Shown: positions 4,350-56,794 of the stretch, in pieces
Position numbering within the stretch: the first letter of the stretch is position 1
Layout: each line of letters opens with the position of its first letter
Source: Clostridiaceae bacterium
Lineage (GTDB): Bacteria > Bacillota > Clostridia > Peptostreptococcales > Tindalliaceae
DNA length: 64,000 bases
NCBI GenBank assembly: GCA_024635995.1
Contig: JAGXHW010000022.1
Location: 1 to 64,000, forward strand
Direction of reading: 5' to 3'
Notes under the pieces: generated by a model
What the model was told of the DNA's origin: nothing
The model's database searches: none
The model's input: the letters and a program-made list of their open reading frames with translations, nothing else
Program-made: the position numbers and the translations under genes

Positions 4350-4948
4350 CCAAGTGGATTTTAATGGTGTTGGTACTGGGCATTCTTATGGGTATTTTTT
4401 TTATGCCGGCTTCTTTTGTGGACGCCCTGGACACACTGATCAGTGCAGGATTGATGGTGGTGCTTTTTCTGGTGGGCATTGGTGTAGGCCGGCAGAAAGG
4501 GTTGTTTAGCCATCTGCGGCGTTTGGGGCCAAGGATCCTGTTGGTGCCTTTGATGGCTGCCCTGGGCAGCGTTTGCGGCGCCATTCTTGCAGGTGTGCTG
4601 ATTCTAAGAATGCCTTGGTACCAGGCAGGTGCAGTGGGCGCCGGCTTTGGCTGGTATTCCTTTGTGGGGGTGGAACTGACCCGTCACAGTGCTTATCTGG
4701 GTACGTTAGCCTTCATTACCAACATCACACGGGAAATGGCCGCTTTAGTATTGATTCCCTTGGTGGTGAAAACATTGGGAGGGCTGGAAGCCGCCGGCAT
4801 GTCCGGCGCTTCTGCCATGAGCATTGCGCTGCCGGTGATTTCCAGGGAGACAGACGCTAACATCACAATCATTGCCTTTATCAGTGGTATGACCCTGGCA
4901 CTGTTGGTGCCTCTGGTGGTGCCTCTGATCATGAGGTGGGGTGGATAA
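4346..4948 (+). CDS. lysO: LysO-type lysine exporter, C-terminal subunit
   Basis: Second half of the split LysO exporter, 200 residues and strongly hydrophobic with about six predicted helices. The family-typical GAVGAGFGWYSFVGVELT and FITNITREMAALVLIPLVVK segments are seen, as is SIALPVISRETDANITIIAF near the end. AAGGAGG at 4332-4338 sets the ATG at 4346, which overlaps the stop of the first subunit gene. The two products should assemble in the membrane. Its last bases overlap the end of the convergent M28 peptidase fragment by 20 bp, with no visible terminator between them. Confidence 0.85.
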   Translation: MTKWILMVLVLGILMGIFFMPASFVDALDTLISAGLMVVLFLVGIGVGRQKGLFSHLRRLGPRILLVPLMAALGSVCGAILAGVLILRMPWYQAGAVGAGFGWYSFVGVELTRHSAYLGTLAFITNITREMAALVLIPLVVKTLGGLEAAGMSGASAMSIALPVISRETDANITIIAFISGMTLALLVPLVVPLIMRWGG

Positions 4949-5564
4949 TCATACGGTATAGAAAATCAACCAGGTCTTCCAAGAGGACCTGGTTTACTTT
5001 ATCCAAGGTGTCCTCGGGTGTATGGGAAATATTCATTACCGTCTCATGTAAATTTGATGAGGTGACAGCCATGCAGGGAATGCCCTGTTGCAGGAACATG
5101 GAATGGTCGCCCTCGTACCATTCTTCACCTTGGACGATGGTGTCAAATTCGCCGGCGGTTGTTAGTAGTTCTGTGGTGTTGTGCTCCGCCAGGTTGTAGA
5201 ATGAAAGAGATGTGTTGGAGTCAATATAACCGGCACCATCGATGTTGATCACCATCTGAATGTCCTCAAACGTTCCCTCATTTTGCTGAAGATATAGCAT
5301 CTGACCCGGAATGGCGTAATAGTCTTCTCCATTGAAAGCAACCAGTTCAAGGTCAGGAGCACCAGTATACTGTTGAAACCTTTCCGCAAGTGACAGAAGT
5401 ACAGCCACTCCGGTAGCGTTATCGAGAGCGCCTGGTGTGTTTTTCTTGGCATCGATGTGGGCACACCAAATGAGGCGGCCTTTATTGCTTCCATTGCCAC
5501 TTTTTCGCGCCACCAGGTTATGAGCGGTGGCTGGGATGCGATGGGATTTGCTGATGAAGGTCAC
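4929..5564 (-). pseudogene. M28-type zinc aminopeptidase, N-terminally truncated
   Basis: Encodes the catalytic half of an M28 metallopeptidase: first zinc ligands in WCAHIDAKK, bridging Asp in GALDNATGVAVLL, Glu region in VAFNGEDYY, Asp in NIDGAG and a late His in SHTPEDTLDKV. Related M28 proteins carry about 150 more N-terminal residues before the SHRIPATAHNLVARK segment with which this frame begins. The only start in frame is a GTG at 5564, with AGGA touching it, and an in-frame TAG lies four codons upstream. The metal site looks intact, so a short active product cannot be excluded, but a 5'-deleted gene is more likely. Confidence 0.6.
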
Positions 5565-5688
5565 TCCTGACGGCTATACATGGTCGTGGAAAGAGGTTCA
5601 TTCTGGGTATAAGAATAACAGTGGTCTGAAGGGCCTGTAAAGTTTATAAAGGTTAACTGTATCATACTAAAAAAAGGAAGGTGAAACC

Positions 5689-6294
5689 ATGGTAAATCTT
5701 AAAATATTTTATGACTTTATTTGACCCTATTGTTATCTTGGCAAGGGTCTTGTCAAAGAATTGAAAAAAGAATATCCTCTTGAAATGGAATGGATTCCCT
5801 TTGAACTGCATCCCGGGACATCGGAAGAAGGGTTGCTGCTGGCAGAAAAGTTTGGGGCCAATGATTTCAGGATGAAATTAGTTGACTTGAAGGAACGGGG
5901 CCGCCGCTTTGGTTATGAATACGCTGGTATGGAACGGATGGCCAATTCCCATAAAGCCCTGCTGGCAGAGCTATATGCAGTTGAGCAACAACACGGGGAG
6001 GTTTTCCGCGATGAAGTCTACCATGCTTATTTTGAGGATGGACAGAACATTGGCCAATTAGAGGTGCTACTGGACATTGGAGAAAAAGTCGGCCTGAACC
6101 GTAAAGAGCTCCAGGCTTCTATCCAGGAGACAAACAATGAAATTTTCAAACCCTGCCTGGAACTGATTGATAAATATGAAGTGAACAGCGTGCCAACTTT
6201 TGTGGTGGCAGATCACTATAAGGTAATGGGGTCAGACAAGGAAGACGCTCTTCGTAAGGCCATTGAAAAAGCCATGAAGGAACAATCATCATAA
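5689..6294 (+). CDS. DsbA/FrnE-like thiol oxidoreductase, selenoprotein (UGA = Sec12)
   Basis: DsbA-family protein of the FrnE/2-hydroxychromene-carboxylate isomerase branch, 201 residues if the UGA at 5722-5724 is read through. The frame starts at ATG 5689 after AAGGAAG and gives MVNLKIFYDFI-U-PYCYLGK, so UGA sits exactly where the first Cys of the family CPYC active site belongs. The second Cys (codon 15) is kept. The rest is a normal thioredoxin fold with helical insert and the cis-Pro region NSVPTFVVADHYKVMGS. A stable hairpin (5738-5756) lies where a bacterial SECIS element is required. Without read-through only 11 residues, or an internal start lacking the active site, would be made. 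Selenocysteine is the best explanation. Confidence 0.88.
5738..5756 (+). promoter_or_regulatory. Candidate bacterial SECIS hairpin (DsbA-like gene)
   Basis: TTGGCAAG (5738-5745) pairs with CTTGTCAA (5749-5756), eight pairs including one G-U, closed by the triloop GGU. The loop begins 22 bases after the last base of the UGA. The known bSECIS pattern is a hairpin whose apical loop lies about 16-37 bases after UGA with a G in its first two positions, and this fits. Confidence 0.8.
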
Positions 6295-6303
6295 AGTAGA
6301 ACA

Positions 6304-6342
6304 ACAGCCTCTGTATGACTTATAGAGGCTGTAGTTATGTTT
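6304..6342 (+). terminator. Rho-independent terminator after DsbA-like gene
   Basis: ACAGCCTCT (6304-6312) pairs with AGAGGCTGT (6324-6332). A weakly T-rich tail follows (AGTTATGTTTT). It closes the single-gene DsbA unit. Confidence 0.6.
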
Positions 6343-55963: not shown

Positions 55964-56044
55964 AACCCATCACGAGGTTAGGAATCCTGTTTATGAAAAT
56001 GCATAGAAAATATAATTATTACGTTGGAAAGGGGCTTGGAGAAC

Positions 56045-56794
56045 ATGAAAGCCTACAAAAGTTTGGCTTGGACAGAGAGATTGTTAGCACCACCTGGAGA
56101 CTATGAAGAAGAGGTTCGCATTTACGTGGGAGCTATCAATAAATTGTCTCACCACAAAGCCAAGTCAATGCTTCATCTTGGGTGCGGCGCTGGTGGCCAA
56201 GATCTTTTTCTGAAGGCAGATTTTGAACTTACTGGGGTTGACCTGAACGAAGAGATGTTATCAATGGCACGTAAGGCTAACCCTGAAGTTATCTATTTAC
56301 AGTGAGACATGAGAACGGTGCGCCTGGACCAGCAGTTTGACGTGGTTATTGTTCCCGATTCCATTGCCTACATGAACACTGAAACTGATTTAGAAAAAGC
56401 CTTGGAAACAGCAACGGTTCATTTGAAGCCGGGAGGTATTTTCCTGGTGGTCACTCACATACGGGAAGAATTTCGTAACAATAATTTTGTGTATACCGGC
56501 AATGATGGACAAACACACCTTACTTTGTTTGAAAATAACCACATCATTGGCGAAAATCAGTATGAAGCCACAATGGTTTACTTGATTCGGCAATATGGAA
56601 AACTGTCTGTGGATCACGATGTGCATACCCTGGGAATGTATTCCCATGAGACATGGCTTCGTATTCTTGAACAGAATGGTTTGGTGGTTAAAGAAACGTT
56701 TAACATGGACCATTTGTATGATGAATTTGTGATGGACGGCGGAGAATACAAGCTAAAGGTGTACCTGTGCGAAAAGGAGACAGCGATTAAGTAA
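56045..56794 (+). CDS. Class I SAM methyltransferase interrupted by in-frame UGA (selenoprotein or pseudogene)
   Basis: 249 codons if UGA 56303-56305 (codon 87) is read. Seen: the SAM loop SMLHLGCGAGGQDLFLK, ELTGVDLNEEMLSMAR (acidic residue binding ribose), then NPEVIYLQ-U-DMRTVRLDQQFDVVIVPDSI, where the residue before DMR is usually Gly or a small residue. The rest of the domain continues uninterrupted to 56794 with HLKPGGIFLVVTH and a typical C-terminus. ATG 56045 follows GGAG. Hairpins after the UGA are weak (three to six pairs). Both selenocysteine and a Gly GGA-to-TGA nonsense change are possible. Next gene follows after 23 bases. Confidence 0.65.

Follow-up and report, generated by a model that had tools for sequence, protein, structure and literature searches.

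A predicted DsbA/FrnE-like selenoprotein with UGA in place of the first active-site cysteine and a covarying SECIS-like hairpin in its coding region

The stretch of DNA analyzed here, referred to as the window, comprises 64,000 nucleotides and carries a DsbA/FrnE-like gene that, judged from sequence comparison, almost certainly encodes a selenoprotein, with selenocysteine (Sec) inserted at the UGA codon at 5722-5724. The product as a whole is very probably a cytoplasmic DsbA/FrnE-like thiol-disulfide oxidoreductase in which selenocysteine serves as the attacking residue. A selenoprotein had been proposed for this gene in an earlier note, and the proposal is supported by the presence of the sel genes, by conservation of the UGA, and by a hairpin that covaries in UGA forms only. 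The features of the gene and its surroundings are as follows.

5676-5681, + strand: Shine-Dalgarno-like sequence GGAAGG; GGAAGGTGA is retained 5' of the gene in both same-genus relatives
5689-6294, + strand: predicted DsbA/FrnE-like selenoprotein gene, 201 residues, Sec at residue 12, TAA stop; the UGA form is kept in same-genus and other phylum genomes
5722-5724, + strand: UGA codon predicted to specify selenocysteine at the start of UPYC (UxxC); Cys or UGA in relatives with a readable motif
5738-5756, + strand: SECIS-like hairpin of bacterial type, 8 bp and a GGU loop; conserved in UGA forms, where compensatory changes occur, and missing from Cys forms
6187-6201, + strand: SVPTF codons (residues 167-171), predicted cis-proline motif of the thioredoxin fold
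6304-6332, + strand: terminator-like hairpin directly past the gene, 12 pairs and a T-rich tail; a consensus match only (1 found, 0.6 expected)

Reading frame and selenocysteine machinery

The ATG at 5689 opens a frame of 201 codons, with GGAAGG located 8-13 bases 5' of it. The sole internal stop is the UGA at codon 12, and the frame ends with TAA at 6292-6294; direct translation (DFI-U-PYC) confirmed the in-frame UGA that the earlier note had placed at this codon. The surrounding residues read YDFI-U-PYCYLGKG, with the motif U12-P13-Y14-C15 closing the first strand. Read with the standard code, the longest open reading frame extends from the TTG at 5761 to 6294 (177 aa) and contains neither the first strand nor the active site; the warning that automatic annotation would begin at an internal TTG and lose the active site was therefore right. 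A gene that standard annotation would cut short past its active site is now corrected. A promoter scan found no convincing promoter 5' of the gene on the plus strand.

The source genome is a 1.88-Mb draft of 36 contigs with an estimated completeness of 75%. It had been argued that the organism must possess selA, selB, selC, and selD, and all four were recovered from contig C10, with selB, selA, and tRNA-Sec together and selD nearby. The selB gene scored 395 bits, above the curated cut-off, with selA immediately upstream and tRNA-Sec just downstream (tca anticodon by ARAGORN; Rfam RF01852, 73.4 bits), while selD lies approximately 2 kb past selA. Curated models were used to call selB and tRNA-Sec, and translations and position to call selA and selD. 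The selD gene (L023:6804-7800, minus strand) contains a UGA inside its own coding sequence (LTSLTKSAG-U-AAKIG), at the position occupied by Sec or Cys in SelD proteins. This selD is likely a second selenoprotein of the source genome, so that UGA seems to be used likewise in at least one other gene.

The hairpin downstream of the UGA

The 8-bp hairpin with loop GGU that had been described at 5738-5756 is present in the sequence, and is conserved and covarying in UGA forms. Its letters are TTGGCAAG-GGT-CTTGTCAA, forming eight pairs of which one is G-U; it is spaced 13 bases from the UGA, and the loop GGU falls approximately 21 bases past the UGA. Folded alone, the hairpin gave a z-score of -3.3 compared to shuffles (1/200).

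Conservation of the stem was evaluated over 39 bases beginning at the UGA, aligned without gaps in 15 UGA forms and 27 Cys forms; the resulting counts are inflated by relatedness, and the structure itself was suggested by these same sequences. Among the UGA forms, 94.9% of cells were paired between stem columns 17-23 and 29-35, and nine cells were changed on both sides, with such changes found at three stem pairs (C-G/U-A, C-G/U-A, and A-U/C-G/G-C). The covariation score was 0.300 compared to 0.131 in shuffles, and neither the observed stem score nor the pairing percentage was reached by any of 500 shuffles. Sliding the stem partner by one to three columns decreased pairing to 25-55%, and RNAalifold recovered the same stem unprompted. 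A G near the start of the loop was observed in nearly all UGA forms. In the 27 Cys forms, 46.6% of stem cells were paired, which was not above shuffles, and no consensus structure was found by RNAalifold. The Cys forms L059 and L061 (IGEGLVE) encode nearly the same peptide as the UGA form L060 (IGDGLVE); since some Cys forms have near-identical peptides, they represent a fair control for the hairpin.

By itself, a stretch of 45-54 bases prefers a different fold that pairs the CCC of the Pro codon. Relatives do not conserve the CCC arm of this alternative, but the 5738-5756 stem is both conserved and covarying; furthermore, the CCC arm would sit under the ribosome during UGA decoding. In the same-genus pairs, conservation of identical codons beneath the hairpin departed only slightly from expectation (p 0.09 and 0.03), and that part of the argument therefore rests on the wider alignment. 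An Rfam scan of the 64,000-nt window gave no match, a result that does not count against a bacterial SECIS. Because the hairpin is conserved and the sel gene set is complete, SelB carrying Sec-tRNA(Sec) would be expected to bind the hairpin at 5738-5756 and deliver Sec at the UGA at 5722-5724.

Distribution of UGA and cysteine forms

When 60 related genomes were searched, the UGA-form gene was detected in the two other species of the genus (78% and 60% identity) and in a single genome from a different family. Searches of 394 order genomes and 398 phylum genomes with a five-row alignment query yielded 55 proteins with a readable motif, of which 19 carry UGA and 36 carry TGC or TGT at the codon 12 position; the motif filter allowed only Cys or stop, so the absence of other residues is conditional on the motif. 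The alignment of homologues agrees with the claim that UGA replaces the first Cys of CPYC, as relatives carry either Cys or UGA there. The UGA is also kept in 12 further phylum homologues that share the hairpin alignment. A contig search with the single protein recovered nothing beyond L021, the same-genus relative, and one distant Cys form. A tRNA-Sec above 60 bits was present in 20/20 UGA-form genomes compared to 14/27 Cys-form genomes (Fisher p 1.7e-4, a guide only because the genomes are related).

Two incomplete copies were also observed. The match L014 in a genome of the same family (G006) retains only the C-terminal half, from about residue 97, near a contig end, and is a decayed or cut copy. 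Genome G432 contains a second, partial UGA-bearing match (G432:C4:68731-68931) besides its full gene.

Three other readings of the UGA were considered alongside selenocysteine insertion. That the gene is a pseudogene, or a CPYC gene whose UGA arose through faulty sequencing or assembly, draws some plausibility from a draft that is 75% complete in 36 contigs and from a methyltransferase gene of the same window that has UGA where its closest relative has GGA. It is nevertheless highly improbable and was rejected: recurrence of UGA at codon 12 in 14 other aligned genomes, and more, in practice refutes it, the frame is otherwise intact across 201 codons with 60-79% identity to relatives, and the hairpin covaries. 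Translation from the TTG at 5761, with the upstream part untranslated and no active site in the product, corresponds to the longest standard-code frame, but is scarcely credible given that protein-level conservation across species extends to the N-terminal 24 residues, which include the first strand and U-P-Y-C, and that the Shine-Dalgarno site stands before the ATG at 5689; this start was likewise discarded. No support was found for UGA as a general sense codon (e.g. Trp) in the source organism, and such a reading, rejected on account of the Sec gene set and the Cys at this site in relatives, is vanishingly improbable: tRNA-Sec, selA, selB, and selD are present, and other window genes end in UGA, e.g. 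the minus-strand ORFs ending near 2905 and 4931. Selenocysteine insertion at codon 12 is consequently the reading retained below.

The window was additionally scanned for frames interrupted by UGA only. The methyltransferase gene at 55997-56794 (+ strand; Pfam Methyltransf_25, 4.4e-14) contains an in-frame UGA at 56303-56305. A same-genus relative, 84% identical, has GGA at this position and no stop, no SECIS-like hairpin was found past the UGA, and the stretch folds no better than shuffles. Selenocysteine was therefore rejected at this codon, apparently a nonsense change or an error in the sequence; each test failed by the methyltransferase UGA was passed by the DsbA-like UGA. Elsewhere in the window, the M28-type peptidase gene at 4929-5569 (minus strand) is shortened relative to the same-genus relative L088. 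Approximately 1.4 kb present in L088, comprising the 5' part of the peptidase gene and a MerR-like regulator gene, is missing, and the junction near 5561-5569 is either a real deletion or an assembly join.

Placing the Sec label on the tree of homologues requires seven changes, at least four of which are forced by well-supported branches. The homologue L082 (from base 1531) is a UPFC form within an otherwise Cys-only clade, and its hairpin (6 bp, loop UGGAU, approximately 28 bases past the UGA; z -2.2) is in a register unlike that of the main group, making an independent gain of Sec possible. L070, L074, and L078 form a separate UGA subgroup (UPFCMIGKVPLDQ / UPFCFIGKIPLDQ) with downstream hairpins off the main group's register. 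The scattered Sec forms and the L082 hairpin in another register suggest repeated Cys/Sec exchange among FrnE-like proteins, including independent gains with a SECIS hairpin in a different register, a scenario for which the chances are evenly balanced. If true, this would be a family in which SECIS evolution inside a coding region can be traced step by step.

Predicted function and known relatives

Pfam DSBA (PF01323) spans the whole protein (3.4e-26, 92.6 bits compared to a cut-off of 25.6), and among solved structures the best sequence match is FrnE of Deinococcus radiodurans (4.9e-14 over residues 3-199), upholding the assignment to DsbA/FrnE-like proteins made in the earlier note. A cis-proline is expected in the V-P-T-F motif of the thioredoxin fold, and P169 and F171 are invariant among the aligned relatives. 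The only cysteines besides U12 are C15 and C156. A C-terminal CXXXXC, found in many but not all FrnE proteins and so not strictly defining, is absent from the protein. An AlphaFold2 model built from a three-sequence input had a mean pLDDT of 51, too low to use. Based upon the UPYC motif, the cis-Pro motif, and FrnE homology, the Sec12 selenolate would attack disulfides in partner proteins or in small molecules, and the resulting selenenylsulfide would be resolved by Cys15.

The protein begins at the first strand and no signal peptide was detected in it, so that cytoplasmic reduction or isomerisation is more likely than oxidative folding outside the cell. A role as cytoplasmic reductase/isomerase, rather than another redox role, is somewhat favored from the sequence. 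The gene stands alone and its neighbors differ between the relatives examined, with no shared gene neighbor seen outside the nearest species; no partner is therefore proposed. Disulfide oxidoreductases as a rule combine UxxC with V-P-T-F, which argues against a selenoprotein whose main role is metal or selenium/sulfur handling or peroxide reduction instead of disulfide exchange. Such a role is possible, if rather doubtful: no neighboring gene points to a partner, and D. radiodurans FrnE, a cytoplasmic disulfide reductase/isomerase, is induced by cadmium and confers protection against both cadmium and diamide (PMC8945050). Disulfide exchange remains the preferred role for the window protein.

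These findings enlarge the DsbA/FrnE-like family by genomes with well-supported Sec use, among them three species of one clostridial genus that share the gene. Furthermore, matched Sec and Cys homologues with the hairpin in the Sec ones only offer a clean natural comparison of Sec and Cys chemistry, and also allow SECIS gain and loss to be compared.

Earlier reports place DsbA-like UxxC selenoproteins (COG2761) in the Sargasso Sea (PMC1088965), in bacteria, the clostridial Desulfotomaculum reducens among them (PMC1794560), and in Global Ocean Sampling (GOS) data (PMC2398784), and a 2026 review lists DsbA-like protein form 1 (PF01323, UxxC) (PMC13188914). Such proteins have been in the literature since 2005, and the window protein adds a member to an established kind. 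Compared by description rather than by sequence, it shares with the DsbA-like selenoproteins (COG2761/PF01323; Zhang and Gladyshev 2005, 2006, 2008) the domain family, the UxxC motif, and a SECIS-like stem-loop after the UGA, and would represent a new, divergent member. Among proteins of solved structure, the putative DsbA oxidoreductase SCO1869 (PDB 3gl5; E 1.9e-5) belongs to a common fold family but is more distant by sequence. FrnE of D. radiodurans (PDB 5cnw, 5cp1), a cytoplasmic DsbA family member with a CPWC-type site, shows full-length homology to the window protein, but has 260 residues and carries Cys where the window protein is predicted to have Sec. The D. radiodurans protein also possesses a C-terminal CXXXXC proposed to take part in regeneration (PMC8945050), whereas the window protein is without it, and this regeneration step is for that reason not claimed for the predicted selenoprotein.
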